DNA from: Brachycybe producta
Lineage: Eukaryota > Arthropoda > Diplopoda > Playtdesmida > Andrognathidae
Reading direction: 5' to 3'
Length of the DNA: 64,000 nt
Assembly: GCA_036925085.1 (NCBI GenBank)
Contig: JAUPFP010000011.1
Coordinates: forward strand, 1,820,797 to 1,884,796
Numbering within the stretch: the stretch's first letter is position 1; every line of letters begins with the position of its first letter. The position numbers and the translations under genes are program-made. Below the pieces are notes generated by a model. It ran no database searches and was not told the DNA's origin. It saw only the letters and a program-made list of their open reading frames with translations. This document shows, in pieces, positions 41,703-60,045 of the stretch.

Positions 41703-42770
41703 CCTGAAACTTCATCCCGAAATATGCTTTTTTGGATATGAAGAGGTGCTCTATCTTGGGCACATCATTTCAAAAAATGGAGTTCATCTAAACCAACAGA
41801 AAGTAGCAGCAATTTTCGAGTTAGCGGCACCCATTAACTTGAAGGAAGTTCAGGGATTCCTTGAAATAGCCGGCTTCTACCGACGATTCATCATCAACTT
41901 TGCTCACATTGCAAAGCCTCTAACTGATCTGACAAAAAAAGAACTGCCGTTCGAATGGACAGAGAAGCTGGCACCTGTGTTGGCAGTATATGATCCGGAA
42001 GCCAAGATTGTGATGCATTTGGCCGCCTCTGGTTATGGCATTGCTGCCATACTTTACGAGAGAGGTTGAAACAAGGCCTTACAAATGATAAGTTGTTTGT
42101 CGAGAGTACTTCGTGATGCAGAACTCAATTACTCCGCCACAAATGAAGAATGCCTGGCAGTAGTATATGACGTGGTTAAATTCCGGCCATACCTCTCAAC
42201 AAACCTTTCACCACTTAAAAACAGCACAGAGATTACAAGGCTGACTTAGGAGGTGGCAACTCCTGCTGCAAAAATACATCTATACAGTGGTCTACAAGGC
42301 TGGAATCACCCATGTAGATGCTGACTGTATTTCTCGCAGTCCGATTGATGTGCCAGACAATTGGAGGCTTCAGGCAACCCCAGATGATTTGGATGACAGC
42401 GTAATTTATGCTGTCACTCTCTGATGGGATTGGACAAGGAAATACCCGGAATTAAGCAAAATCATTGATGAACTTCTACAGACACCAGAGTCCGAACTCC
42501 ACAAGATTTACATCATTATGGAGGAAGTTTTGTGTGCTGTCGTATATCACAGCAGCATAATCCCAAAACTAGGGACAGTCGTACCACACCAACTGGTACA
42601 AGAGGTGCTTCATCTCCTGTATGATATTCCGGAAGCTGGACACTTTGGACAAAACAAGACCCTGAAGATTCTTCTTGGGTACCTGGAAAAAGGACACCAT
42701 TGAGTTTGTACGCACCTGTGAGGTTTACCAAAAAGGTAAGGCACCTCAATCCAAACTGTCTGGTTTCTTT
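41703..42770 (+). pseudogene. Ty3/gypsy pol pseudogene (RT end, RNase H, integrase start)
   Basis: The first frame reads LKLHPEICFFGYEEVLYLGH, GFYRRFIINFAHIAKPLTDL and FEWTEKL, the late RT region of Ty3/gypsy. It then enters RNase H (ASGYGIAAILYERG) and stops at 42067. Shifted frames continue with LNYSATNEECLAVVYDVVKF, and an integrase-type LVQEVLHLLYDIPEAGHFGQ near 42590-42650. Several frameshifts and stops show it is dead. It is unrelated in detail to the intact element on its right. Confidence 0.75.
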
Positions 42771-42959
42771 CACGAGATGCAAATCAGAGACCCGGAAAAA
42801 TGCTAGAGATGGAGTTATGTCATCACCTGTGAGAATTAAATCACAAGGGAGGGGCTATAAAAGACATTTAAAAAAATCCCCATGTCAATCAAATAGAAAA
42901 ATTTATTCTGACCAATCAGGACACCACCTGCATCATCCAGGGGCCCATTCACAAAATAA

Positions 42960-42963: not shown

Positions 42964-44540
42964 TGTTAGGTGTTGAAAAAATAAGTAAAGCAACACCTAA
43001 CAATAATTTGAAAGAGGGGCAGAAATTAGTAAAAGAGAAAATTAAAATAAAGTAAAAAGAGAAAGAGGCGGAGCTAGAAAGAGAAACAATGAAAGAGAAG
43101 TAAAAAAAGAGAAGAAAAAATGAGGAAATAAAAAATGGCGGGAAAGTAGTAGTAAAAGAGGGGGTGGATAAAGTATGAATGAATCACACCCACACACACA
43201 CACTCATAGTAAACAGAGGCAAAAAAGGGAGAGGCTGAAAAAAAGTAAAAGAAACCCACCCACCCATAAGAGAATGACGAAGCAAGAAGAAAGTCAAAGA
43301 AAGGGGGGAAACAAAAAAGAAACCCACCCACACAAGTAAAAAGTAATAAAAAGTTTTTAAAGAAAACAAGAGAGGGGGGAAATAGAAAGACTAAACCCAC
43401 CCACACACACTTTAGAAGGGTGAGCCCAAATAAGTGTACCATGTTAAATAAAAACTTTTTTACAAAATTAAATGTAATTAAAGAATGAAAAGAGTGGAAA
43501 ACATACTATAAAGTGTAATAGATAGATAGATGAAGTGGTTAATTAACCTGATATAATCTGATTACCTAGTGGAGTGTAAAATAAGAGAAAAGTAAAGTTG
43601 AACAATGAAAAAGTTTAAATGTGACACTTAAAGAAGAAAAACATATGGTTTATACTTCATACTCACACGGTAGAAGACCACCTGTTTTACAAATAATTAT
43701 GACGTCATTATAGAAAAAAAATAAAAAGAAAGAAGGGATGGAAAAAGTGTAACAAGATACTTTTTACCATACACTCTCTTCAATATGCAAAACAGCAAAG
43801 TAATAAAAAGTTTAAAAGAAAAAGTAAAGCACATAACAGGTTCTCAACACATTAAGAAAAGGGCCGTTAATAATATATAGAGTATATTGAAGACTATAGA
43901 GAGGAAACTTATGAATGAGTATAATGAAAAGAATGGAACAATATGTGAAGTCAAACATAACCCAAAAGAGGTACCGACAAGTAGCGAAAGAGTTGTATGA
44001 TGTTAGGGTTCTCAACAGAGTAGGGGTAAAAGGGCCAAAATCGTATTTAAATAGAAATACATTTCGGAGGGCCTAGAAAACCAAATAAAGGAACATTGGG
44101 AATGTTAGTCATTCAAATGAAATGTTATGAGTTGCCGAAAACTAAAACTTTCGATGAAAAGTTAAAAGGTTAACTATTCTAATTCATAGAAAATGACGGT
44201 TAGTGGAAATAACAGTATGTATCGACGATCGTAAAAAATTTATAAAAAATCCAAATTGTAATTTTACGACCGGATGCATATTAGGCAGATGTTCGTAGAA
44301 GAAGATCAAAAGCCAGTTGACCGATTGGTTATTTTAATTTTAGAAAATTAATTCTAACCAATCAGAATACTTAAAATTCATTTCTGACTAAACAAGATGC
44401 GATGAACATCGTATTCTAGAGAGAGTCCTACATTGGAGTTCTAGAAGAGAGGACATATGTTATAGATTTAGTAAAAAGAAAGAAGAAAGACCTTAGAAGA
44501 AATTTAGAGGATGAGACTTAGAAGAAATTTAAAGAATAGG

Positions 44541-44860
44541 ACTTAGAATTATTTTGAATTGAGTTTGTGAATTCATTTAGACTTAGAATTATTTTGAATT
44601 GAGTTTGTGAAGTCATTTGGATTTAGAATTATTTTGAATTGAGTTTGTGAAGTCATTTAGACTTAGAATTATTTTGAATTGAGTTTGTGAAGTCATTTGG
44701 ACTTAGAATTATTTTGAATTGAGTTTGTGAAGTCATTTAGACTTAGAATTATTTTGAATTGAGTTTGTGAAGTCATTTAGACTTAGAATTATTTTGAATT
44801 GAGTTTGTGAAGTCATTTGGACTTAGAGTTGTTTTGAGTTGAGTTTGTGAAGTGTTTTGA
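44541..44860 (+). repeat. 40-bp tandem array inside the 5' LTR
   Basis: Eight units of exactly 40 bp starting ACTTAGAATTATTTTGAATT, with the last unit diverged and running into AATAAA. The same array with the same unit order is at 61622-61941 in the 3' LTR. Confidence 0.93.
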
Positions 44861-44965
44861 GAAATAAACCTAGGAGTTGGTTTTTCATGTAATTTGGATT
44901 TTGAGTCTGAGACCAGGAAAGTGTTTTCACGAAGCTATAATTCTCCGAAGACAACAAGAAGCCAT

Positions 44966-44977
44966 CTAAGGTAAGGT
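44966..44977 (+). promoter_or_regulatory. Candidate major splice donor in the LTR
   Basis: CTAAG|GTAAGG is close to the full 5' splice site consensus. Located downstream of the LTR AATAAA, it would supply a short common leader for spliced messages. The paired acceptors proposed are at 46931 and 55938. Confidence 0.6.
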
Positions 44978-45182
44978 TAACAACTCTTGTTATCTTTATT
45001 AGGCCCAGTCCAAGAAAATTAAAAAATTACTACCACTCACTGATAAACTACAAAACCCATTCCCTACATAAGCCTTCATTGGCTGGGAGGGTCGAACCCT
45101 AAACCCAATAGGTACTATTTGGCTGAAAGGGGAATCACAGAACACCACTGTGATAGCCGTGAAAACGGAAACTTACAAAAAG

Positions 45183-45201
45183 TGGCGCAGTCGACAGGAT
45201 T
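45183..45201 (+). promoter_or_regulatory. Primer-binding site, tRNA-Ser type
   Basis: TGGCGCAGTCGACAGGATT begins five bases after the LTR. Its reverse complement ends CGACTGC-G-CCA, preceded by CCTGT and AAT. This fits a tRNA with acceptor GCAGTCG and T stem ACAGG/CCTGT, the pattern of eukaryotic tRNA-Ser(UCN). The match to a particular tRNA of this species is inferred. Confidence 0.8.
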
Positions 45202-46920
45202 AGTTAAAAAATCGGTTGGGTGGTTGAATTGTTTTATTAGAAAGTTTTGTGGCAAAGCAATTGGAACATTAGTTGGGGTTTTGGGATGGCAATTTGATTT
45301 TTAGAGTGTATTTTATTGAAGTGTATTGTCTTTTTCCTATTATTTGGTTGGGCTAAATTTGGATAAATAAAATTAGTTTGAGTTCAATTGGGTTGGATTG
45401 ATTTTTTTTTTTGTTTGGTGTTTAAATAATTCATTAGTTGCTTTGGTTAACAGTTGGGTTATTTTAAAGAAGTTCAGTTGAGACAATTGAGTTGTTTTGA
45501 AGCTTATATGGTCAAAGTTAATTGAAGTTATTAGATTATGTTGATTGGGATCTAAAAAGTGAATACATGAAAAAATTTTTTTTTTGGATTACAGAATAAA
45601 TTGTGCATGCTTACCTTGTTTTAAAATTGATGAACAAAGAGGTTAAAGAAATGAGTATTGAGTGATAGACAGAGTTGGATTAATTTATGAAGTAAAACTG
45701 AGAATAATTTGCATGTTCTAGGGAGAATTGATTTTTAGAAAGCTGATTGAGATATTTTATGAATTTTAATTGTAATTTTTTAGGGGTGAATTGGAATTGC
45801 GATTAACATGAGAAAATTAATTGAATTTTGAGAAAAGTTAATTGATTTGCTTCATTAAGTGTGGAATATCTTATTTGTTAATGTGTGAATTGGCTAATTC
45901 AGAAAAACTAAAAAATTTTTTGGGTTTGGATTAATTAGGGTTATTTGAGGAATTCAACTGATTGCTTATTTTGGAATTAATTATATCAAATAACATTTGT
46001 GGCTAAAAGATACTAGAAGATCTTTCACAACTTAAATGGGATTATTTTCAAAATTTTGAAAATTATTTGTATCTTAATGAGTTTCGAATTTTGTGTTTAG
46101 TATTTAATCTTTATTAAAATTGTAGAACCCTGCAAAATATTATTTTCTTGGGTTACTATAGTAGAATTATTGTTTGCAACTAAAACCTTTTTATTTTATG
46201 TATCTAAGACTGTTTTGTTTCATTTTTACCAAAATTGTCGAGGTTTGTCTAGTACAAGAATTGGACTGGACAAACATAGAAATAGCAATCGAAGAGATTG
46301 CTTATTTCTTTATTGCTTTATGGGCAATTAAAGCATTCTGGGGTTAAATAAAAATACTTACTGGTGAACAAAGAAATGAGCTGGAAATTGTTAGTGTATT
46401 GTTGCATAAAGTTAACTGACTTGTTCTGGTTTAGAGGATTTGATTGGGAGGAGGTAGATATTACTGCTAGAGACCTCATTTATCTTTGTGTTCATCTTAT
46501 CATGGTTAAAATACTTTGGGGTTAGAAGATAATGAAATTTGCAAGTCAATTAATGGTTTAATGAAAAAAAAAAAAAATTTCTGGAAGATTCTTAGGTTTA
46601 CCCATATTGTTGTTGTGAGTGGATATGTTGAGTACATTATTATTGATTTTGATCAAGATTTTTGGGGGTCCTAAAATATATTAAGTGGCCTATTAAGTGC
46701 ATGATTAAATTAAGTCATATTGCCTGAGTTGTTTTGTTTCAATTGTTTTGCAAATTGTTTTTGTATTGTACTTGTTTTTAAGATTTGCTCCCAACACATA
46801 CGCACGCTCCCATACAAAATTGCATACATAATTGCGCATAAAGTAATTAATTGATTAATTAGGTAATCGATTAATGGGCCTTATTAGAGTGTTTGGGGGG
46901 ATGAAAGAATCGTAATAATG
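45202..46920 (+). other. Long T/G-rich leader of the retroelement
   Basis: About 1.7 kb with no ORF of note, clearly T- and G-rich in contrast to the A- and G-rich coding part. It probably holds packaging and dimerisation signals, but none could be identified. Confidence 0.5.
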
Positions 46921-46934
46921 CTCTTTTCCAGGTT

Positions 46935-47366
46935 ATGGCCGAAGCACCAGAAGACCGTGAACTGAACAATTTTAAACCAGTGTGCAGAGTTTCCCCTAGA
47001 ATTATAACAGAAGAAGAGTACCGAGAGCGACGAGAAAGATTCATCGACGAGGCAGAATTAGCGTATCACTTACTCTTGGCTAACCTAAGACCGTTGGCGG
47101 GTTACCAGTCGGTACGATTTAGCTTGCCGTCTCCGGTGAGCCCAACACCGAGTTCAATACCAAGTCCAATACCAAGTCCGATACCAAGTCCGGTACATTT
47201 TTTGGAGAGTGGAGTGGCACAATTTTATCTTCACGGAACTCCAATCTTTAACGTGAGATCGGATCTTGCTGGTTTCATCGCACCTCCTTCGTCTCCCGTG
47301 GAAAGAGAACCACCGGAGCCACAGGACGAACGATTGGCAGACGACGGATTGCCATATCACGTTTAA
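46935..47366 (+). CDS. Accessory ORF A1, Pro/Ser-repeat protein (143 aa)
   Basis: The ATG lies four bases after a good splice acceptor (TGCTCTTTTCCAG, ending 46931), so this is the first ORF of a spliced message. The N-terminal half is charged, with an acidic/arginine helix (EEEYRERRERFIDEAEL). Residues about 64-86 are a proline-serine run built on SPIP repeats that stem from a 12-bp DNA repeat. The C-terminus is acidic and proline-rich (SSPVEREPPEPQDE). It lacks the CCHC/CCCH motif of the following ORFs, a signal peptide and membrane segments. No known family recognised; a matrix-like or regulatory role would be speculation. Confidence 0.65.
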   Translation: MAEAPEDRELNNFKPVCRVSPRIITEEEYRERRERFIDEAELAYHLLLANLRPLAGYQSVRFSLPSPVSPTPSSIPSPIPSPIPSPVHFLESGVAQFYLHGTPIFNVRSDLAGFIAPPSSPVEREPPEPQDERLADDGLPYHV

Positions 47367-47402
47367 AGGTGATTATATATGTAAGGTTAAGAAAATTTGT
47401 TT

Positions 47403-47642
47403 ATGGATGAGTGCATGTTGCAGGACATTTGCATATTACCCTGGTGCCCATTAAGACCAGAGTGTAATATCATTGACTTGAGTGACATTGATGTTATTTT
47501 TGTATGTACTACACATTTGAGAACATTTGAGGGTGCCGAATATAATATTTGGATGAATGCTAAAGAATTAATTGTTTCCGTCCACGATTTATGGCAGATA
47601 TTAGATGGATATTCCACTGATTTTGTAGGATTTGAAATATGA
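47403..47642 (+). CDS. CCCH-motif mini-protein Z1, type alpha (79 aa)
   Basis: Residues C15, C21, C35 and H38 form C-x5-C-x13-C-x2-H. The opening LPWCPLRPEC and middle NIIDLSDID-CTTH are shared with Z6 and Z8 (type alpha). The C-terminal half is a probable amphipathic helix (WMNAKELIVSVHDLWQIL). No signal peptide or membrane segment, so a cytosolic zinc-binding protein is the simplest reading. Its TGA stop overlaps the ATG of Z2 (ATGA). Function unknown. Confidence 0.75.
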   Translation: MDECMLQDICILPWCPLRPECNIIDLSDIDVIFVCTTHLRTFEGAEYNIWMNAKELIVSVHDLWQILDGYSTDFVGFEI

Positions 47643-47929
47643 GTTTTGTGGATGAATACGAGGTATCCTCAACCAATGATTTTGTATGCCCTTATAGTAA
47701 TATTTGTTTCAGAGCTCCAGATTTCTCAGACAATTCATATATGTGGAAGTGTATGAGCCACAATTACCTGTTTGATATTAGAGATTACCCATTTGTTGCA
47801 CTAGGAAGACCTGGATCAAACAATTTAGAAGCAAGTATAGAATATAGTGAATTTTGTGAATATATTGGACAATTTATCATACATCCAAATCTGGTTGAAA
47901 TCAAAAACTTTTTCAATAGCAGGAATTGA
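47639..47929 (+). CDS. CCCH-motif mini-protein Z2, type beta (96 aa)
   Basis: C17, C23, C38 and H41 give C-x5-C-x14-C-x2-H. The block YMWKCMSHNYLFDIRDYP and the following ALGRPGSNN match Z9 (YRWKCVTHYRHFDKRNYP, AFGRVACS), defining type beta. The start overlaps the stop of Z1 by four bases, suggesting coupled termination and re-initiation. No similarity to a known family recognised. Confidence 0.75.
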   Translation: MSFVDEYEVSSTNDFVCPYSNICFRAPDFSDNSYMWKCMSHNYLFDIRDYPFVALGRPGSNNLEASIEYSEFCEYIGQFIIHPNLVEIKNFFNSRN

Positions 47930-47944
47930 GAAGAAGTAAAGATT

Positions 47945-48154
47945 ATGTGTAAAAAAAAAAAAAAAAAATCTTTAGTAAGTATAACTTGTCCATTTAGTTT
48001 AAATTGTGTTTTTATTATAAAGAAAAGAGATAATTTGGTGAAGTGTGTTTGTCATCTTAATCATTTTCAAACTGAATACATTCAAAGTAATCGTGACTTG
48101 AAAGATAAGTTCGAAATTTTATCAGTAAAAAAGCATGAACTTAGAAGACACTAG
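47945..48154 (+). CDS. CCCH-motif mini-protein Z3, type gamma (69 aa)
   Basis: C15, C21, C34 and H37 give C-x5-C-x12-C-x2-H; CHLNHFQTEYIQ resembles Z4. Codons 3-8 are AAA inside an 18-base A tract directly after ATGTGT, making a poly-lysine start. Such a run is prone to slippage in replication, transcription and translation, so expression may be heterogeneous. It overlaps Z4 by 20 bases in another frame. Confidence 0.65.
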   Translation: MCKKKKKKSLVSITCPFSLNCVFIIKKRDNLVKCVCHLNHFQTEYIQSNRDLKDKFEILSVKKHELRRH

Positions 48155-48344
48155 TAGGAACATACCACAGTGCCCAATAGGTCCTTATTGCATTGTAAGA
48201 TTTTTTCGAGAAAGTGGTCGAGTTAAGTGTTTTGTACATGATACCTGGTATCAGACAGAAAAAATCCCAGAGAAAATTATAATTAAAGAGACAAGTAATT
48301 TGAAGTTGAAGGTAATAAAGGAAGAGGAAAAGAAAGAAAGTTAA
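48135..48344 (+). CDS. CCCH-motif mini-protein Z4, type gamma (69 aa)
   Basis: C13, C19, C32 and H35 give C-x5-C-x12-C-x2-H. The opening CPIGPYCIVRFFRESGRVKC is close to the first module of Z5 (CPIGPDCITKFHRSIGRIEC). The C-terminal third is lysine- and glutamate-rich (IKEEEKKES). Its ATG lies inside the end of Z3. Confidence 0.72.
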   Translation: MNLEDTSRNIPQCPIGPYCIVRFFRESGRVKCFVHDTWYQTEKIPEKIIIKETSNLKLKVIKEEEKKES

Positions 48345-48354
48345 GATATTTAGT

Positions 48355-48714
48355 ATGAGTGAGGATTATCAAACGAATAGGTTACAGTGCCCCATAGGAC
48401 CAGATTGTATTACTAAGTTTCATCGATCTATAGGACGGATTGAATGCCTCACCCATAAATTCTGGTATTTACCTGCAGATTACGTATACAGGTGTGCTAA
48501 TCAAGGTTATTTCCCGATACAAGCTGTTGTTGATTGTACTGATCAAGACACTGAGGAAGACATTCGAAGAATAATTATAAGTAGATGGGAATCGTGTCCT
48601 TATGCTAGGAATTGTGCCTTTGTAGCCATCACACAAAACGAAGCTCCAAGGGAATTCCAGTGCATTATACACGGAACAGTAATTAATACTCTTTTTAACG
48701 TAATCCATATGTAA
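48355..48714 (+). CDS. CCCH-motif protein Z5, type delta with two modules (119 aa)
   Basis: Module 1: C12, C18, C31, H34. Module 2: C81, C87, C103, H106 (C-x5-C-x15-C-x2-H). Between them are two further cysteines (C47, C61) that have counterparts in Z7. Module 1 resembles Z4, so this looks like a fusion of a gamma unit to a second, longer module. It is eight bases from Z6. No signal peptide. Confidence 0.75.
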   Translation: MSEDYQTNRLQCPIGPDCITKFHRSIGRIECLTHKFWYLPADYVYRCANQGYFPIQAVVDCTDQDTEEDIRRIIISRWESCPYARNCAFVAITQNEAPREFQCIIHGTVINTLFNVIHM

Positions 48715-48721
48715 AGAGGGT

Positions 48722-48946
48722 ATGGACTTAAATGTATTACCATGGTGTCCTATAAGACTTAATTGTGTAATAATTGATAGAAGAAACATAGATAACACAT
48801 ATGCTTGCCTTACACACCAAAGAATTTTTCAGATAGAAGAATACGAAAATTGGCTTCAAGTTAGAACATTATTGACAACACTAGGTGAACTATTGCAAGA
48901 TATATATAGCTTTTTCATAAGAATAGAAGAAGAAGAAAGTGTATAA
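48722..48946 (+). CDS. CCCH-motif mini-protein Z6, type alpha (74 aa)
   Basis: C9, C15, C29 and H32 give C-x5-C-x13-C-x2-H. LPWCPIRLNCVIID, YACLTHQRIFQIEEYENW and the helix VRTLLTTLGELLQDI are nearly the same as in Z8. The tail is acidic (RIEEEESV). Confidence 0.75.
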   Translation: MDLNVLPWCPIRLNCVIIDRRNIDNTYACLTHQRIFQIEEYENWLQVRTLLTTLGELLQDIYSFFIRIEEEESV

Positions 48947-49005
48947 AGAATTCCAGTTATAGACAGAAAATATTATGGTTTATTAATGAGTGATATTTAA
49001 AGGGT

Positions 49006-49365
49006 ATGGATTTAAGCATACAAAGGAAAACGGAACGAGATGCCAATAGATGTCCTTTTGGGAAAAGTTGTAGTATAGTACACGAAGATTTTCAAGAATT
49101 TGTAACATGCGAAGTCCACAACGTAAATTTTGCATTTCCTGAGTATCTATACATGTGTGGTATAAATCCTAATGTAAACAGAGTAATTTTTGAGACTAAG
49201 TGTAAAAGTCCCTTAGAAGAACTTCAGTTATTAACAGATAGAATTGGTAATCATTGTCCATTGCATGACGAATGCTTTTTTGTCTTAATTTCACCAAAAA
49301 CTTGGCCTAAACAGTATCAATGTGCAGTTCATCAAAAGATATTTAATGAACATTTGGGAGTATAA
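49006..49365 (+). CDS. CCCH-motif protein Z7, type delta with two modules (119 aa)
   Basis: Module 1: C16, C22, C35, H38. Module 2: C84, C90, C106, H109. It is the same length as Z5 and has the same spacings (x12 then x15), with the intermodule cysteines C51 and C66. It is clearly a paralogue of Z5 at low identity. Confidence 0.75.
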   Translation: MDLSIQRKTERDANRCPFGKSCSIVHEDFQEFVTCEVHNVNFAFPEYLYMCGINPNVNRVIFETKCKSPLEELQLLTDRIGNHCPLHDECFFVLISPKTWPKQYQCAVHQKIFNEHLGV

Positions 49366-49407
49366 AAGATAAAGGAAAAAAGCGTGTTTGTTTGAATTCT
49401 TAATAAA

Positions 49408-49644
49408 ATGAGTGTTGATTTAGAATTATTACCATGGTGTCCCTTAAGGTTTAGTTGTGATATTATTGATTTAACAGAAATAGAGAACATTTATGTGTGT
49501 CTCACACATCATAGAGCTTTTCAAGTAGAAGAATATGAACTTTGGCTTCGTGTTAAACAGTTGTTAACCTCATTAAATGAATTATTGCATGAATTAGATG
49601 AATATTCCATAGAGTCAGAAATAGATATTGACCGATTTAGATAA
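49408..49644 (+). CDS. CCCH-motif mini-protein Z8, type alpha (78 aa)
   Basis: C11, C17, C31 and H34. LLPWCPLRFSCDIIDLTEIE and VCLTHHRAFQVEEYELWLRV are the alpha pattern. The helix KQLLTSLNELLHELDEYS repeats that of Z6. The end is acidic. Confidence 0.75.
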   Translation: MSVDLELLPWCPLRFSCDIIDLTEIENIYVCLTHHRAFQVEEYELWLRVKQLLTSLNELLHELDEYSIESEIDIDRFR

Positions 49645-49677
49645 AGAAGTTTTATTGTCAGAAAATAATTTAGAATA

Positions 49678-49977
49678 ATGAGCGAGAATTTTAGTGATCA
49701 AGATAAGGTTTATAGGTGTCCTGAACTAAAAAATTGTTTCAAAACACAGTGTCACCATCATAGACAAGATTATAGGTGGAAGTGTGTTACACATTATAGG
49801 CATTTTGATAAAAGAAATTACCCAGAGATAGCATTTGGGAGAGTTGCATGTTCATATGAAAAAGCAGTTAGAGAATTGATAGATTTTAATGAGTATTTGT
49901 CCCGCTTAGGTCACCCCGCAAAAACACAGGAAAGAATAGATTTTTTCGTACAAAGAGACTTAGAAGGGGAAGATTAA
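49678..49977 (+). CDS. CCCH-motif mini-protein Z9, type beta (99 aa)
   Basis: C14, C20, C36 and H39, with additional C and H residues (CHHH) in the spacer. It is the paralogue of Z2. The end (FFVQRDLEGED) is charged. The gag ATG follows 31 bases after its stop, in a different frame. Confidence 0.75.
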   Translation: MSENFSDQDKVYRCPELKNCFKTQCHHHRQDYRWKCVTHYRHFDKRNYPEIAFGRVACSYEKAVRELIDFNEYLSRLGHPAKTQERIDFFVQRDLEGED

Positions 49978-50008
49978 AGATTAAAATTAAAAGTTGTTTG
50001 GAAATTAG

Positions 50009-51220
50009 ATGGAAGAAGACAAAATGGCTTCCAATGATGGAGAAGTCGGTAACTCCAATGGTAGTGCAGAAGGTAACGCAAATACGAATCTTAACATGCA
50101 TCACACAGGGTTAATACCATATTTTTCTGGGGATGAAAAAGGACCATCCGCCAAAGAGTTTTTTGAGCAAATAGAAGGTGTAGCTAATTTAGCAAGATGG
50201 ACAGAAGAGTTCCAGATCATTCTGATAAAATCCAAGTGCAGAGGTCCTGCTGCGGAATTTTTCAGAGATCATCCAAGCATTCGACAGATAAACTCAATTG
50301 AAGAGTTAAAAGCGTTGATGATACAAAGATTCGAGCCAATCGAACCTAAGTTGGTATCAATGCAGAAGTTTTTAGAAGAAAAACAGAGCAACACGGAAAG
50401 CGCTATTGAGTATATTTCCAGAGTAAAGACCAGAGGAAGAGCCTTCACCGAGGAAAATCCCAGTGCCGACCAGATAGCAGTCAGAGATGGGATGATACAA
50501 AATCAAATCATCAAAGGATTGCATCCAAGAATAAAAAGATTTGTACTTTCACGGAATCCTGCTGATTTGAACGAAACAATCAGAATCATTCTAGCGGAAG
50601 AAGAAAATGAGAAGTTGGTTCATGCGAAATATGGAATAAATGTAATAGAGACGATTACTGAAGAAAAGGAGATGCTGAAGAAATTTGAAGAGAAATTAAA
50701 GCAATTGGATGCTCAGAGAACTAAAGACATTGCAGTATTGGACCAGAAGTTTCAAGAAAAAATAAAGGCTCAAGAGAATGCCAAGAAAGAGGAAGGAAGT
50801 AATCAAAGGATGGATAAACGAAATGTTGAATGTTTCAGATGTCACAAGAGAGGACATTATGCTAATGAGTGTTGGTCAAAACCAACAATTCCACAGCAAT
50901 GGAGAAATCCGAGTTACCCACAACCAAATTGGAATCAGCCACAAGCTTTTCAGCCTAATGGTAGAGCTCCTAATTTTGGAAATACACAGAGAAATGTGCA
51001 GATTGAAAGGCAGAGAGGCCAAGGATGTTATAATTGTGGGAAAATGGGTCATTATGCAAAGGATTGTAGAATGAAACAAGTCCAAAGACAAAGTGAACCC
51101 ATAGTATGTTTTAAATGTGGAAAGCAAGGTCATTTTGCAAATGTTTGTAGATTAGGAGCAAGACAGAACCCAGGGAATCAGGTTCGAAGAAATCAAGCAA
51201 ATGGTAGGACGGAAAACTAG
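50009..51220 (+). CDS. gag: Gag polyprotein (403 aa)
   Basis: Structural precursor that assembles the particle and binds genomic RNA. A capsid-type helical region spans about residues 35-215 (YFSGDEKGPSAKEFFEQIEG, and FRDHPS, NPADLNETIRIILAEEEN typical of gypsy gag). A charged coiled-coil stretch follows at about 220-265. Three CCHC zinc knuckles then occur near residues 274, 340 and 367 (CFRCHKRGHYANEC, CYNCGKMGHYAKDC, CFKCGKQGHFANVC). Three knuckles is more than the one or two usual in gypsy. It ends with TAG at 51218-51220; the pol frame is -1 relative to gag and opens at 51208. Confidence 0.92.
   Translation: MEEDKMASNDGEVGNSNGSAEGNANTNLNMHHTGLIPYFSGDEKGPSAKEFFEQIEGVANLARWTEEFQIILIKSKCRGPAAEFFRDHPSIRQINSIEELKALMIQRFEPIEPKLVSMQKFLEEKQSNTESAIEYISRVKTRGRAFTEENPSADQIAVRDGMIQNQIIKGLHPRIKRFVLSRNPADLNETIRIILAEEENEKLVHAKYGINVIETITEEKEMLKKFEEKLKQLDAQRTKDIAVLDQKFQEKIKAQENAKKEEGSNQRMDKRNVECFRCHKRGHYANECWSKPTIPQQWRNPSYPQPNWNQPQAFQPNGRAPNFGNTQRNVQIERQRGQGCYNCGKMGHYAKDCRMKQVQRQSEPIVCFKCGKQGHFANVCRLGARQNPGNQVRRNQANGRTEN
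51205..51220 (+). promoter_or_regulatory. Gag-pol junction with possible -1 frameshift site
   Basis: The pol frame opens after a TAG at 51205-51207 and gag stops at 51218-51220, leaving a 13-base window for a -1 shift. GGAAAAC at 51211-51217, directly before the gag TAG, is the only slippery-looking word; its P-site half is not canonical. Re-initiation at the ATG of 51259 is an alternative. Confidence 0.35.
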
Positions 51221-51258
51221 AAACTCCTTCAAAGAATAGAACGCGTCAATGGGGGAGA

Positions 51259-54200
51259 ATGTATGAAAACCGCGTCACATTAAACATTCTGAATGACACA
51301 ACATGTCCTATCTTTTTAGCTCAGTCGAAAAACAATCTGATAAAGATTCTATATGACACAGGAGCAGGAATATCGATAATTTCCAAATCCTTATTTGAAA
51401 AGATAAAAGGACGGAAATCACGAGATATAAAGCCTATCACTGATCAAGCTAAGGTTATAATTACCACAGCGAATGGTACACCGTTTCGTACAAAGGGATT
51501 ATATGAAATACCCGTACGTATTACAGCAGAGAAAGTGGAAAAGGTTCCTTTATACGTGAGTGCAGAAGATTTGCCAAAGAAATATCAGATGATTTTCGGC
51601 ATAGATGTGATAAAGCAGTTAGGATTAACATATGAACCCTTGCTTGATGTAATTGGTTATAATGGGATGAAAATTAAGACAAGAAGTTTAGAGAAAAATG
51701 AAATGATTAATATGTTGCAGAAAAAGGGAGATAAAGAATGGATATTAGAAGTAGTAAGTAAAACGGAGACAGAGAATCAGAATCAATTAAGAAAATTTTT
51801 GGAGAAAAATGATGATATATTTGCAGGTTCACTTAAAGAACTGAAACCGACACCTGTTGTTGAACAAGAAATCCACATGGTGGATCAAGTTCCAGTTTTT
51901 ATACGACCATACAAGTTGCCACAGAAATCAGAAGTAGTTATGAAAGAGAAAATTGATGAGTTATTAGATGCAGGAATAATTAGACCATCGTTAAGTCCTT
52001 ACTCAGCACCGTGCATGCTTATAGGAAAACCAGATGGGAGTCAAAGATTAGTTGTTGATTATCGAGCATTGAATTTAAAGGTAGTTAGTGATAAATATCC
52101 ATTACCAGAGCTTTTGGGAGTAAGTAATCAATTAGGAGAAGCTGTTTATTTTTCTACTTTAGACATGGCAAGTGGTTTTTACCAGATTCCCATAACAGAA
52201 GAAGATAAAGCAAAAACAGGTTTTAGTACACCTTTTGGACACTATGAATTCAACAGATGTCCAATGGGACTAAAAACATCTCCAAGTGTATATCAGAGAC
52301 TTATGGATAATGTATTAGGTGATTTGAAAGGGAAAATTTGTTTTGTTTACATGGATGATATTATTGTATACAGTAAAACTATAGAGGAACATTATGAAAG
52401 GTTAAATTTAGTGTTTGAGCGACTTAGAAATGCAAACTTAAAAGCAAAACCAACAAAATGTTTGTTCCTACAGAAGGAAATAAACTATCTAGGACATACA
52501 TTTACACAAGGGAAATTCCAACCAGGTGGAAAGAAAGTAGAAGCAGTAGAAAATTTTCCGAGACCAACAAGTGTCAAGAAAATACAAAGTTTTGTGAGAT
52601 TAGTAAACTTTTATAGAAAATTTATTCCAAATTGTGCAAGTTTAGCAGGTCCATTAACAAAGTTGTTAAGTAAAGATACTCCATTTCTTTGGACAAAAGA
52701 CTGTGAAGAATCTTTTCAGAAATTAAAAGGATGTTTGATTACATATCCAGTTTTGATAATGCCAAATTTTGAAAGACCATTTTATTTGACTACTGATGCA
52801 AGTAATGAAGCAATCGGGGCAATCCTCGAACAAAAGATTGACGGTCAATTACACCCAATATCTTATGCGAGTAGGAAGCTCACCAAATCAGAACAAAATT
52901 ATTCTACGACATGGAAAGAGGCATTAGCATGTGTTTATGGTGTAAATTATTTTCGATATTACTTGATGGGAAGAAAGTTTACTCTTATCACAGATCATCA
53001 ACCATTAAAATACTTGATGACTATGAAAAAGGATAAAGCTATGTTAACTAGATGGGCATTACAGTTACAACAATATGATTTTGAGGTTTTATATAGAAAA
53101 GGTAAAGAGAATACTAATGCAGATGCTTTGAGTCGAAATCCTGTAGAAAGCAAAGAATTAAATGTGTTAAATGAACAAGAAACTTGGGAAGAACATGAGG
53201 TTGCTAAAGATCAAGAAAATTGCGAAGAATTGAAATCTTTCATGGAATGTTTATATGGTTGTCCAGTAGATAAAAAGGTAAAAGAAAAAGTTGATAAGTT
53301 GGGTTTAGAATTAAATACAAAAGGTTGGTTAGTAAAAAGATCCGAAAATAAATTAAGAACTGTAGTCCCTTTGAGTAAAAGAAATTATGTGTTGAAAATG
53401 TGTCATGATAATATTACAGCAGGTCATTTTGGTATTGAAAAAACAACAAGCAAAGTTGCAGACAGATTTTATTGGGAAACTTTAAAGAAAGATGTGAAAC
53501 AATATTGTGAAGCTTGTGTATCGTGTAATCAGAAAAAGATTCCACATGGGAAAAGTCCATTATGTAAGTTCCCAGCACCATCCAAACCATTTGAAAGAAT
53601 TGGAATGGATATACTAGGTCCTTTACCTACTACACAGAATGGAAATAAATACATTGTAGTTATTTGTGATTATCTAACAAGATACCCAGAAGCATTTGCT
53701 ATTCCAGATCAGAAAGCTGAAACCATTGCAAATTTGTTAGTAAGAGAAATTATTTCACGGTATGGTAGTCCCCAGACTCTAATAACAGACAGAGGTGCAA
53801 ACTTTATGTCTGAACTTATGAAAAGTCTGTGTGAGACATTCGGAATTAAAAAGATTTTTACGTCAGCATATCACCCGCAAACAGATGGTTTAGTTGAGAG
53901 ATTCAACAGGACACTAACAACAATGTTATCACATTATGTTGATAGTTCACAAAGAAATTGGGATGAGGAACTTCCATTAGTATTGATGGCATATCGTAGT
54001 GCGATGCATTCAAGCACTAAGGAGACACCTTATTTTTTATTGTTTGGACAGGATATGAATTTACCATTTGATTTAATAGGAGATGAACCTCAGCCAGTGT
54101 ACAACACTGAAGACTATGGAAAGGTAGTGGCAAATAGGATGCAGAAGATACATGATATAGCAAAAGAGAGTTTAGAAAAATCAGCAGAAAATCAAATTAG

Positions 54201-55071
54201 ATATCAAGGAAAGAAAAGAAAAAATAAAGGAATACAAGTAGGTGAAAAAGTATATTTGAATGTACCACAAGTAGCACAAGGTAAAACGAAAAAATTAGCG
54301 AAGTTGAACAAAGGTCCTTATCGAGTCATTAGACAAACATCACCTGTTAATTTTGAGATAAAGCACATGTATAGACACAAAGATGTACAAATAGTTCATG
54401 AAGAGAGATTAAGAGTAGTAAAAGGAAAAAATCCATGGGAAAAGATTGAGGACTGTACAGAAAAGGTGAAAGAACCTAAAGAACAAAGCAGAAAAGGCAA
54501 AAGGCCTAGTGAATCGAGTAATTCAAGTTCAGATGAAGATGATGAAGACAATGCAGATAAAATTGATTATTGTTGTGAAAAGGTACCTACAGTAAATACT
54601 AAGACACCTAAGGGAATTATTCGGAACACAGAAGCCGTACCCAGTACTAGTGGTTATAATTTACGAAGTAAAGGTTCCATACAGTTTGCTACGCCATTAC
54701 CAGTAAGAACAAGAAGAATTACACCTAGGACAGAAGTATTACCTAGACTACCAGATCCACCTAGAGTTAAACCAGGCGAATCTGAAGATGAAGGAGATTT
54801 GAGTTTAGCAAGGTTACGTAAAAAGTTGCAAGAGATATTGAATAAAGGAAATTCTAGGGATACCCAAGAGGAAGATAGACATCCTCCAAGTATTTCGGAA
54901 TCCCAAGAAATTAGTGCATCAGAAGAAGAAATTCAGAGTGAACAGGATTCTATAATTGAAGAAGATACTAGAAAAACTGGTCAAGAAGAGCCAGAAGATA
55001 ATGTAGCAGGACAATTGTTAGACAAGATGTTTAAATTAGTAAGTGTGATAGAAAGAATGAGTAAGAAATAA
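51259..55071 (+). CDS. pol: Pol polyprotein: protease, reverse transcriptase, RNase H, integrase (1,270 aa from first ATG)
   Basis: Copies the RNA genome into DNA and integrates it. Retropepsin active site DTGA at residues 33-36. RT catalytic YMDD at 364-367, after LDMASGFYQIP and FSTPFGHYEF. RNase H starts at LTTDASNEAIGAIL and ends at ENTNADALSR. The integrase zinc finger begins around H716 (HDNITAGHFG, CEACVSCNQ), and the catalytic triad is D784, D844 and E880 with the 35-residue spacing of DD35E. A GPY/F-like LNKGPYRVI follows. The last 200 residues are an unusual Ser/Glu/Asp/Lys-rich tail with no chromodomain seen. The frame is open upstream of this ATG to 51208, overlapping gag by 13 bases. 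All catalytic residues are present, so the element may be active. Confidence 0.95.
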   Translation: MYENRVTLNILNDTTCPIFLAQSKNNLIKILYDTGAGISIISKSLFEKIKGRKSRDIKPITDQAKVIITTANGTPFRTKGLYEIPVRITAEKVEKVPLYVSAEDLPKKYQMIFGIDVIKQLGLTYEPLLDVIGYNGMKIKTRSLEKNEMINMLQKKGDKEWILEVVSKTETENQNQLRKFLEKNDDIFAGSLKELKPTPVVEQEIHMVDQVPVFIRPYKLPQKSEVVMKEKIDELLDAGIIRPSLSPYSAPCMLIGKPDGSQRLVVDYRALNLKVVSDKYPLPELLGVSNQLGEAVYFSTLDMASGFYQIPITEEDKAKTGFSTPFGHYEFNRCPMGLKTSPSVYQRLMDNVLGDLKGKICFVYMDDIIVYSKTIEEHYERLNLVFERLRNANLKAKPTKCLFLQKEINYLGHTFTQGKFQPGGKKVEAVENFPRPTSVKKIQSFVRLVNFYRKFIPNCASLAGPLTKLLSKDTPFLWTKDCEESFQKLKGCLITYPVLIMPNFERPFYLTTDASNEAIGAILEQKIDGQLHPISYASRKLTKSEQNYSTTWKEALACVYGVNYFRYYLMGRKFTLITDHQPLKYLMTMKKDKAMLTRWALQLQQYDFEVLYRKGKENTNADALSRNPVESKELNVLNEQETWEEHEVAKDQENCEELKSFMECLYGCPVDKKVKEKVDKLGLELNTKGWLVKRSENKLRTVVPLSKRNYVLKMCHDNITAGHFGIEKTTSKVADRFYWETLKKDVKQYCEACVSCNQKKIPHGKSPLCKFPAPSKPFERIGMDILGPLPTTQNGNKYIVVICDYLTRYPEAFAIPDQKAETIANLLVREIISRYGSPQTLITDRGANFMSELMKSLCETFGIKKIFTSAYHPQTDGLVERFNRTLTTMLSHYVDSSQRNWDEELPLVLMAYRSAMHSSTKETPYFLLFGQDMNLPFDLIGDEPQPVYNTEDYGKVVANRMQKIHDIAKESLEKSAENQIRYQGKKRKNKGIQVGEKVYLNVPQVAQGKTKKLAKLNKGPYRVIRQTSPVNFEIKHMYRHKDVQIVHEERLRVVKGKNPWEKIEDCTEKVKEPKEQSRKGKRPSESSNSSSDEDDEDNADKIDYCCEKVPTVNTKTPKGIIRNTEAVPSTSGYNLRSKGSIQFATPLPVRTRRITPRTEVLPRLPDPPRVKPGESEDEGDLSLARLRKKLQEILNKGNSRDTQEEDRHPPSISESQEISASEEEIQSEQDSIIEEDTRKTGQEEPEDNVAGQLLDKMFKLVSVIERMSKK

Positions 55072-55307
55072 TTCGGTTAAGGTAGTCATTGAAAGGAAAA
55101 TGATGAAAAAGTTATGATAAATAATAGAGATTTTGAGAAAAAATGTTTGAGTTTAGATTAGCGGACAAAGTATTGATATTGTTAATGAATTGTTAGACAA
55201 CATGACATTGAGTTAGCTTATCTATATTTAACGACTAATGAGTAAAAATGAATGGTTTATTGAATTAATGAAGATAAAAAGATGACAGAGAAATAAGAAT
55301 AATTAAA

Positions 55308-55557
55308 GCATTAATGTTAGACGACGGACTGTCTGGAATAATGAAAGAAGAAAATTAGGAATTATTAAAGCATTAATGTTGGACAATGGACTGTCCGGAA
55401 TTAAGAGAAATAGAAATAAGAGTGATTAAAGCATTAGTGTTGGACGACGGACTGTCCGGAAATAAGTAAAAGAAAATAAGAATAATTAAAACATTAATGT
55501 TGGACGACGGACTGTCCGGAATTATGAAAAGGAAAATTAAGAATGATTGAAACAGTA
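55308..55557 (+). repeat. 61-bp tandem repeat between pol and env
   Basis: Four units spaced 60-62 bp, each with GCATTAATGTTGGACGACGG followed by ACTGTCCGGA. Within each unit GGAC and GTCC arms can pair as a short stem-loop. The region 55072-55950 is otherwise non-coding. Confidence 0.85.
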
Positions 55558-55928
55558 ATGATAAAAAAATAGTGAGTGTTGAGAAAATAAGTATATTTTG
55601 AAAAGAGAGTATAGAAATAAAATTGAATCAAAGAAGTTCTCATTAAAGATCTAAGCTAGGAAAATAATTGTTGTAAAGCAACAAAGGCTAGTAAAGATTG
55701 ACAGATTATGCTAAAGAAGAATTTAATAGAAATAGTAGAAGCTTAGGGGGCAGGAGACCCACTACTAATGAATATAGGAAGAAGAGATTAATGAAATTGA
55801 AATATTGTTTGTAGGAATTGAGATTTTGTTTTAAAGAGTTTGAAATTGTTGTTTAAAGATGTTGAGGAAATTGATTAACTATTTGTTATAAGTGTATAAT
55901 GATTTGGTTTTAGGAGATGAGAAGTTTG

Positions 55929-55941
55929 TTTATTTCAGATA
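55929..55941 (+). promoter_or_regulatory. Candidate splice acceptor for env
   Basis: TTTATTTCAG ending at 55938 lies 13 bases upstream of the env ATG. With the LTR donor at 44971 it would yield a subgenomic env message. Confidence 0.5.
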
Positions 55942-55951
55942 AAAGGAAGAA

Positions 55952-58645: not shown

Positions 58646-59209
58646 CTGTACTCATCTTTCACTATGAAACAACAGTGAAAGGGAGAAAATTATTTTCTCA
58701 ATATTGCATCTATAATATACATCGAGAAGAATTATCTACAACAACGATACTGTAGAAGTTGTGACATTTTACCAGGTGATAAAATCTGTGAAAATGTACC
58801 AAAAAAGACTTCTAAAACAGTTTAAAGAAAGACATCAAAGAAAAGATCAGCCCATGACATCACACAAAAAGATGAACATGGATGATTTCTAAACATCATA
58901 AAGGTTGGAAAGAAGGAAAAAATTCAAGACATCAGAGATGAAAAGAATCAAGACATCAATGAAGAGAGAATTCAAGACTTCTGAGAATAATTAAGAGAAG
59001 ACAGCAGATGGACAGCATGGAAGACCACAGGAATCCATATGATTAAAGGCATCACGAAGATATGAAGATGACCAAGTGTGATGGCACGAAAGACTGAATT
59101 TCTGAACTTATTTGTGAGTAGAGACTTAATGGAAATATTGTGTTTTTAGATGTGAATTTTAAAATGTTATTAGGCTAGATTTGATGGTTAGAATGTAACA
59201 TTTTTGAGA

Positions 59210-59415
59210 GTGAAGAGTGAAGGGAAAACAGAATAATTTGAAAATAGAATTGGTACAATAGAAAAATGAAGAGATTAATGTCCAATGAAGAGTGAAGAGA
59301 AAACATAGAATAATTTGAAAATAGAATTGGTACAATAGAAAAATGAAGAGATTAATGTCCAATGAAGAGTGAAGAGAAAACATAGAATAATTTGAAAATA
59401 GAATTGGTACAGTAA
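59210..59415 (+). repeat. 77-bp tandem repeat, about 2.7 copies
   Basis: Units share GAAGAGTGAAGAGAAAACAT, AATTTGAAAATAGAATTGGT and GAGATTAATGTCCAAT and are almost identical, so expansion was recent. Confidence 0.85.
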
Positions 59416-59579
59416 AGAAACAAAGATGAAATTGATATCGAAGGAAACAAGAAAATATGTGGACTTTATATATAGAACATAGAATGATGTTGCTTATAAA
59501 CTAGTATTATATTAGTATTATCCTGATTATCTAACAAAAACAGGGCTTATTTTAATATTACTTATATATTATTGGAGAT

Positions 59580-59782
59580 ATCCTGTCGACTATATAATTG
59601 TATCGACTGTGTATCCGGTCGACCATATAATCAAGCAGAAATTATGCTAATACCTATGTAACGGTGGGCTAATGAAGTAGTATCCTGTTGACAAAGCAAA
59701 AGTAAAGTGAAGAGAAAATAGGAAACATGATGTAAAAGGGTATATCCTGTCGACAAAATAATGGAAGATAATCCTGTCGGCT
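59580..59782 (+). promoter_or_regulatory. Cluster of five motifs complementary to the primer-binding site
   Basis: ATCCTGTCGACT (59580-59591), ATCCGGTCGACC (59613-59624), ATCCTGTTGAC (59682-59692), ATCCTGTCGAC (59744-59754) and TAATCCTGTCGGCT (59769-59782). The first is an exact 12-base complement of the primer site and equals the 3' T stem/acceptor of the inferred tRNA-Ser. The core GTCGAC is self-complementary. A role in 5'-3' genome contact or dimerisation is inference. Confidence 0.5.
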
Positions 59783-60033
59783 AAAGGAATACTAAACAAA
59801 AAACAGCAATGATGACAGAATCATATTGGTGAGACGTAAAGTCTTAATGATCCAATGAAAATTGATTCGGAAGAAATTCCCTTGCATAAAATATCACAAA
59901 GATGATAGCAAGAAAATCTGAGCTGACTTAGAAATCATACAAGATATGATTATACACACTTAATAAACATAAAGTTAATTAAAGGGATTGAAAGGGATTT
60001 TGTATTGACATTGATAAAGAGAAGTAACATTTT

Positions 60034-60045
60034 AGGGGGTAGGGA
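60034..60045 (+). promoter_or_regulatory. Polypurine tract
   Basis: AGGGGGTAGGGA directly abuts the 3' LTR (TGTTAGG), the expected place for plus-strand DNA priming; a single T interrupts it. Confidence 0.8.

Follow-up and report, generated by a model that had tools for sequence, protein, structure and literature searches.

A cassette of small zinc-motif genes upstream of gag in a Ty3/gypsy-type element of Brachycybe producta

Animal long terminal repeat (LTR) elements are usually described as carrying gag and pol, with or without env. The element analysed here lies in a stretch of 64,000 nucleotides of the millipede Brachycybe producta (contig JAUPFP010000011.1, positions 1,820,797 to 1,884,796 of the forward strand; the whole stretch is called the window below) and carries, upstream of gag, nine small open reading frames (ORFs) that share a zinc-type motif and that together are an accessory gene cassette of this env-bearing, Ty3/gypsy-type element. 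In the published accounts, which are drawn on here in excerpt, the MDG1-group Ty3/gypsy elements of insects have sORF1 and sORF2 upstream of gag, of which sORF2 is reported to enable passage from cell to cell (PMC11952523); like the ORFs of the window, these are small accessory ORFs between leader and gag that reportedly show low non-synonymous rates and are disrupted in some members (PMC11952523). Likeness of other kinds is found in the Burro giant gypsy elements of planarians, which have Bcl-2-like, BIR and other host-pathway domains as well as accessory ORFs (PMC6431247), in CERV of the C. elegans element Cer1, an LTR-element accessory protein that is made from spliced RNA and has a cysteine-rich region (PMC10309623), and in ORF3 of bdelloid rotifer LTR elements, where accessory ORFs are common to different kinds of retroelement (PMC5408684). 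From the comparison of copies and families presented below, we consider it nearly certain that the nine ORFs belong to a real accessory family that is maintained by selection.

Nine zinc-motif ORFs and their conservation

A six-frame scan of the 64-kb window gives 11 matches to the pattern C-P-x4-C-x(12-15)-C-x2-H, each of them within 47403-49977, and 200 mononucleotide shuffles of that segment yielded a mean of 0.0 matches. A first-pass annotation had described nine ORFs with eleven such modules, each ORF with its own ATG and tightly spaced, and this description holds, the gaps between successive ORFs being -20 to +59 nucleotides (nt). All nine are on the + strand. The cassette opens with o1 (type A, 79 residues, 47403-47642) and o2 (type B, 96 residues, 47639-47929), which overlap in ATGA. 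These are followed by the basic o3 (type C, 69 residues, 47945-48154), which has a poly-A run close to its start, by o4 (type D, 69 residues, 48135-48344) and o5 (type D, 119 residues, two modules, 48355-48714), by o6 (type A, 74 residues, 48722-48946), by o7 (type E, 119 residues, two modules, 49006-49365) and by o8 (type A, 78 residues, 49408-49644); o9 (type B, 99 residues, 49678-49977) then closes the cassette ahead of gag. The placement between leader and gag needs one amendment, in that ORF0 (46935-47366) intervenes after the leader.

A module comprises about 25 residues with the ligand pattern C-C-C-H, one or two per ORF, a pattern from which zinc binding would be predicted. Four element families (that of the window and those of the loci L055, L056 and L058) together have 26 zinc ORFs, and when these were compared all against all with phmmer, they formed one connected net at an E-value of 1e-4 (set of 26); this net stays connected without a natural A-B fusion. 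The modules thereby make up one family, which those of type B join through a weaker link that suggests common descent. In a total of 30 ORFs there are 38 modules, of which 31 follow the strict pattern and the remaining 7 deviate in spacing; because these ORFs were chosen by motif or similarity, the conservation of the ligands is partly circular.

Pfam has no relative for any of the 11 window modules (zf-CCCH_2 reached E 4.5 with o7), and profiles of types A, B and D/E gave no near-significant match among PDB sequences, where the type B profile reached APLF at E 0.11. In the protein database nothing was found at E 1 with the type A profile (511 candidates) or with the D/E profile (139 candidates). 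That this database does contain such elements follows from a query with pol, which matched 1831 relatives, 120 of them listed. No zinc motif occurs in 121 proteins taken from the pol and COX1 matches, which are pol proteins and one COX1 and so are little informative. Among PHROGs, four zinc ORFs were without match and ORF0 came to 0.076. The family thus recurs across element families and, for the types searched, is without relatives in these databases, in line with its earlier description as a new-looking zinc-motif family inside a retroelement.

The genome that was searched for copies has 442 contigs with a total of 295 Mb. A query with the initial 498 bases of the cassette hits 24 places, seven of which, the window included, share the top E-value. 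In all, 26 places that belong to the family of the window or are close to it were examined (some read in part), 17 of them young copies and 9 old or truncated ones. An ORF was counted as intact if it starts with ATG and is identical to its counterpart in the window at 85% or more of the residues of the latter. By this measure the 17 young copies retain ORF0 in 16 cases, o1 in 16, o2 in 13, o3 in 11, o4 and o5 in 17, o6 in 15, o7 and o8 in 17 and o9 in 14, o9 being broken in the other three. The weakest ORF is o3, which starts inside the poly-A run, and the length of this run varies among copies. All nine old or truncated copies have at least one ORF broken or absent. Random breakage or absence of the ORFs in related copies had been named in advance as evidence against the family; the outcome of this check and of that on dN/dS (see below) is mixed, though for the most part favourable to the family, in that the young copies mostly keep the ORFs, but only six of the 17 are complete and every old copy is damaged.

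Selection on the protein is apparent from comparisons between copies. In frame, the ratio of non-synonymous to synonymous change (pN/pS) was 0.17-0.61 over 15 copy pairs in three sets, with p <0.05 in 13 of them, whereas the two other frames of the same 15 pairs, which served as a wrong-frame control, gave 0.58-1.77 and not one significant value in 30. The pairs share ancestry and are hence not independent, and the control was run in two batches of 10 and 5 pairs; an earlier test of 10 pairs gave p <0.05 in nine. For o6, the sequences compared from L019, L020 and L043 (about 74% identity) are probably counterparts of its paralogue o8, and the tests that include these pairs carry this flaw. Pooled against nine older copies, omega (dN/dS) was 0.17-0.46 for o1, o2 and o4-o9, 0.13 for ORF0 and 0.18 for the start of gag. 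The L056 family gave 0.12-0.43 for its zinc ORFs, 0.21 for a Bcl-2-like ORF (see below) and 0.07 for the start of gag, and L058 compared with L060 gave 0.21-0.68 depending on the zinc ORF, type C being without synonymous change. Among six near-identical copies the numbers are small: o7 has an omega of 1.6 (1 synonymous and 7 non-synonymous changes), o3 has 0 and 6 such changes and o8 has 0 and 1. Taken together, the ORFs of the cassette are thus subject to purifying selection at the protein level, and o3 alone is without such a signal. The selection on protein function that had been proposed is thereby borne out; in the dN/dS check suggested with it most ORFs lie below 1, the exceptions being o3, o7 in the near-identical set and two non-significant pairs of the 15.

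Related families and a Bcl-2-like gene

When proteins of types A, D/E and B were used as queries against the genome, with the best candidates only being scored, they yielded 41 clusters beyond the close copies of the window (one of them, C4, was also counted among the 26 places above), and in 26 of these clusters, grouped within 5 kb, at least two types occur together. Direct reading gave the order A-B-C-D-D-A-E-A-B-gag in the window, E-B-(A-B fused)-C-D-X-E-gag in L055, A-B-C-D-Bcl2-A-E-gag in L056 and B-A-C-D-E-gag in L058, the last of which was read only from 248 bases upstream of its B; a stop-broken B match lies upstream of the A of L056, at C7:3934015. All four families have C, then D, then E, 5' of gag. 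Their gags are 58-72% identical, and pol of the window and pol of L056 are 78% identical over 637 residues. Successive ORFs up to gag are -74 to +294 nt apart in the four families, mostly -20 to +59. The junction of A and B is an ATGA overlap in both the window and L056, and in L055 the two form a single fused frame. Immediately 5' of the ORF0 ATG the window has the splice-acceptor-like ctcttttccag, and L055 likewise has an acceptor-like sequence 5' of its ORF0. The L055 ORF0 (763-1449) also contains CPx4C followed by H-x3-C-x-H, which is loosely CHHC-like.

The isoelectric point (pI) of type A is 4.1-4.7 in six of six separate ORFs and 4.4 in the A-B fusion, and that of type C is 8.9-9.8 in four of four, so that type A is acidic and type C basic in all four families; type B lies below 6 in four of five ORFs (7.0 in the fifth), and types D and E are mixed (5.7-9.6). 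A membrane-like stretch (19-residue Kyte-Doolittle mean >1.6) is present in none of the 26 zinc ORFs, the largest mean being 1.27. An AlphaFold2 model of o8, made with two window paralogues, has a mean predicted local distance difference test score (pLDDT) of 80, with means of 93 for residues 21-30 and 90 for residues 31-40, and consists of three short strands (19-21, 28-31 and 36-39) followed by a long helix (40-76), which would suggest a small ribbon-like knuckle fold.

The cassette does not seem to accompany every gag of this kind. A search with gag listed 150 matches of 425 candidates, many of them far from any zinc match. Two loci with very weak type B matches (E 0.22 and 0.48) were read, L077 as B, C and gag and L076 as a B frame with a related gag downstream, and L075 (type B E 0.069) has a B-like frame. 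In contrast, L078, L079 and L080, whose gag starts are 74%, 75% and 62% identical to that of L077, have no CP-x4-C..C-x2-H ORF on the + strand in the approximately 3 kb upstream of gag; one 64-residue frame in that position in L078 fits only a much looser pattern. Since three gag-related families are without zinc ORFs in the 3 kb before gag, the cassette is accessory or optional, with an apparent history of loss or gain among relatives.

Within the cassette of L056, between D and E, there is an ORF of 157 residues (L056:1540-2013) that resembles Bcl-2. It matches the Pfam Bcl-2 profile over nearly its whole length at 1.9e-5 (25.6 bits, versus a curated cut-off of 31.4) and PDB chains of Bcl-2 and Bcl-xL at E 0.002 upward, and it has a hydrophobic C-terminal tail (mean of 2.48 over the 19 residues that start at residue 137); a relative in L073 scores 42.6 bits with the same profile. 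A genome search with this ORF gave at least 150 matches, some of which are two pieces of one gene. In L072, L073 and L074 relatives lie near an ATPase ORF, which in L072 matches Pox_A32 (8.2e-6) and in L073 and L074 is alike by eye only, and no gag was found in the stretch read at these three loci. The identities are 53% between L056 and L072, 34% between L072 and L073, and 43% and 38% between L072 and two ORFs of L074. Because L056 is closest to L072, albeit in an unrooted comparison, a transfer of the Bcl-2-like gene between a DNA-virus-like element and the retroelement fits. The two relatives in L074 are arranged in tandem (L074:2321-3292), close to the ATPase-like ORF. L072-L074 may be Polintons or adintoviruses, and Bcl-2 in adintoviruses is reportedly treated in earlier literature. 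In the cassette of the window no Bcl-2-like ORF was seen.

Possible functions of the cassette

The interpretation that we favour, and to which we give an even chance, is that the cassette proteins are host-facing adaptors that engage host defence or cell-death pathways. It is placed at that level, ahead of a role for the element's own RNA, because the cassette is optional, its proteins are diverse, some of its types are acidic and it has a Bcl-2-like gene as a neighbour. Types A and B, which are acidic, and of which type A has a helix behind the knuckle in its model, would serve as protein-binding adaptors, while the basic type C and some of the D and E proteins may bind nucleic acid; jointly, the proteins would engage the host pathways during replication or spread and would not take part in particle building. 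The sequence signals are consistent with a polycistronic RNA that would be spliced to the acceptor before ORF0 and on which stop-start coupling, for example at the ATGA between A and B, would allow successive ORFs to be translated.

The best of the alternatives, which we nevertheless regard as rather unlikely, is that the proteins serve the element's own RNA, in the nuclear export, splicing control, packaging or translation of the long unspliced transcript. CERV is a known accessory protein for the export of genomic RNA and has a cysteine-rich region (PMC10309623), basic proteins are found in type C and in part of D/E, and, given the acceptor-like site ahead of ORF0 in both the window and L055, export of the unspliced RNA from the nucleus may require assistance. 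However, o1, o2, o6 and o8, four of the nine ORFs in the window, have a pI of 4.1-4.5, nine paralogues for a single RNA task seem uneconomical, and the cassette was not found in related families, one of which has a dozen or so near-identical copies. The proteins might also be small zinc-binding regulators of LTR transcription or of integration targeting, for which the zinc-type modules, the helix in the one good model (o8) and the position 5' of gag can be adduced; we consider this improbable, given that no DNA-binding family was matched in Pfam and that several of the ORFs are acidic. A role in cell-to-cell passage, like that of the MDG1-group sORF2/FAST-like proteins, agrees with the position, the size class and the low dN/dS known from MDG1 (PMC11952523), yet it is very unlikely, for the 26 zinc ORFs are all without a membrane-like stretch and the element already has an Env-like ORF. 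The least credible alternative, that of decayed or chance frames without function, can draw on the breakage of o3 (five of 17) and o9 in young copies, on the three relatives without a cassette and on one copy pair (L013) without frame effect, but is refuted for the cassette as a whole by the low in-frame pN/pS, set against the wrong frames, and by the recurrence of the motif across families with such diverged gags, and is possible for o3 in the window's family.

Several results weigh against the host-facing interpretation or against the evidence on which it builds. No host target is indicated by any result, and expression, protein and zinc binding are predicted from sequence alone. Guilt by association is thin because the Bcl-2-like gene was seen in one family only. 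Since the model of o7 is poor (pLDDT 46.7) and a fold search with the o8 model gave no match, the ribbon-like fold is a reading of the strands alone. At E 1e-5, and with the fusion removed, the five type B ORFs split from the other 20. All nine ORFs and ORF0 are intact together in no more than the six young copies mentioned, of which the window is one; o3 is broken in five of the 17 and absent in one, and its omega against the nine older copies is 2.06 (4 synonymous, 36 non-synonymous). The non-significant pairs are L013 (0.61, p 0.2) and L067 (0.36, p 0.08), and the in-frame value of L013 is not below that of one wrong frame (0.58).

A set of as many as nine zinc-type genes whose types persist across diverged families, with a Bcl-2-like gene added in one of these, would show that animal LTR elements are able to bear accessory repertoires of a viral kind. 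More tentatively, and with somewhat less than an even chance, the stretch between leader and gag may be an accessory island like the gene arrays of large DNA viruses, in which a zinc miniprotein was multiplied into separate host-binding adaptors and which, to judge from the Bcl-2-like gene, traded cargo with DNA-virus-like elements in this genome; a gypsy-type element would then be engaged in counter-defence by means of an amplified gene family. The presence of the cassette in some related families and its apparent absence in others provides a natural comparison for its benefit, be it in host range, in escape from silencing or in survival of the infected cell.

The surrounding element and its comparison with known systems

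The element is of Ty3/gypsy type and occupies 19.3 kb of the window (42964-62258), its features lying on the + strand. Comparison of the repeats delimits a 5' LTR of 2214 bp (42964-45177), with TG...CA ends and a run of 40-bp repeats inside, and a 3' LTR of 2213 bp (60046-62258); the pair has 2213 identical positions and differs by a single gap without any mismatch. The element is bordered by AAAC at either end, in front of the 5' LTR and behind the 3' LTR. LTRs without mismatch (with one gap) and AAAC on both sides indicate that the insertion in the window is young. A probable primer binding site, TGGCGCAGTCGACAGGAT, was read directly from the sequence at 45183-45200. ORF0 encodes 143 residues and is proline/serine-rich, acidic and without a zinc module. 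Then, after the cassette, come gag (50009-51220, 403 residues), which has CCHC knuckles and a Retrotrans_gag match below the Pfam cut-off, and pol (51259-55071), in which Pfam matches follow the order protease, reverse transcriptase (RT), RNase H and integrase; zf-CCHC, RT, RNase H and integrase score above cut-off and the aspartyl protease barely below (27.6 versus 28.2 bits). An env-like ORF of 897 residues (55952-58645) contains a Phlebovirus_G2 domain (PF07245, 1.5e-29). With its LTRs, target duplication, primer site, CCHC gag and order of pol, this is a Ty3/gypsy (Metaviridae) LTR element. Among the pol matches listed, the top named one is from a pseudoscorpion (45%), other named arthropods showing 46-47%. 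The RT piece has no relative in IMG/VR, and Rfam gave no match at the gathering threshold. The Env of insect errantiviruses is of F type and related to a baculovirus protein (PMC12992720, PMC5408684); identity with these was rejected, as the env-like ORF matches Phlebovirus_G2 and not the F type, and its env piece has no match among PDB sequences.

Some further sequences deserve mention. Five copies of ATCCTGTCGAC (two exact, three with one mismatch) lie 5' of the 3' LTR, at 59580-59781. ATCCTGTCGAC is complementary to a portion of the stretch that resembles a primer site (45190-45200), and six matches, that stretch included, were reached in none of 100 shuffles; the copies could reflect 5'-3' pairing or a second site related to the primer tRNA. 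Four copies of a repeat of about 61 bp with a GGAC..GTCC core lie between pol and env (55290-55560), and a 77-bp tandem repeat in three copies lies 3' of env (59225-59455). A broken pol-like stretch, read by eye, adjoins the element at 41800-42800, and a P-element-like (TNP) transposase ORF of 656 residues occupies 25677-27647 on the - strand. Elsewhere in the genome, COX1-like pieces occur in long contigs (C17:4001073-4029047, C17:3332011 and C1:12697416) and are possibly nuclear copies of mitochondrial DNA; another COX1 lies on a contig of 15.4 kb and is translated by the invertebrate mitochondrial code (code 5).

As to known zinc fingers, the spacing is C-x8-C-x5-C-x3-H in CCCH fingers, C-x5-C-x6-H-x5-H in PBZ fingers (APLF) and C-x5-H-x9-H-x3-C in CHHC fingers (U11-48K, GTSF1). 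The first knuckle, C-x5-C, is similar in the PBZ and CCCH types, but here the second pair is C-x2-H after 10-17 residues. Identity with a CCCH finger was therefore rejected, only the C-x5-C part fitting (and zf-CCCH_2 being at E 4.5 for o7), as was identity with a PBZ finger, the second pair in the window being C-x2-H after 12-15 residues and the APLF match lying at E 0.11. A CHHC finger is likewise rejected, the second ligand in the 11 window modules being C and the rear pair C-x2-H. The BIR, THAP, SWIM and zinc-ribbon families were considered as possible kin as well. The CCHC knuckle of gag is C-x2-C-x4-H-x4-C (PMC12440569), whereas all 11 window modules are C-x5-C-x(12-15)-C-x2-H and gave no zf-CCHC match, so that the spacing is, as had been remarked, unlike that of both the gag knuckle and the C-x8-C-x5-C-x3-H finger.

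In the open-licence literature we found no published precedent for an amplified cassette of small zinc genes. The earlier remark that no gypsy or retroviral accessory cassette of this kind was known therefore stands for the zinc family and has to be qualified for the arrangement, since small ORFs before gag have a precedent in the MDG1 group (PMC11952523). For Bcl-2-like domains within gypsy elements, Burro provides a precedent (PMC6431247). ORF3 of bdelloid rotifers encodes GDSL and DEDDy enzymes and other types, with no amplified small zinc family in the excerpted account (PMC5408684). CERV differs in that it is a single RNA-export protein of 517 residues whose exons are common with the gag frame (PMC10309623). 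In Burro the host-pathway domains lie mainly in one giant polyprotein and Env is of another type (PMC6431247), and the same excerpt notes no CP-x4-C..C-x2-H family (PMC6431247). The MDG1 group has two ORFs, one helix-turn-helix-like and one membrane fusogen-like, zinc modules not being noted in the part of the account used here (PMC11952523); identity of the zinc ORFs with sORF2/FAST-like proteins was rejected on the single membrane-spanning stretch of the latter, which is found in 0 of 26. Finally, the MDG1-group elements are described in that account as being without Env (PMC11952523), whereas the element of the window combines its cassette with an env-like ORF.

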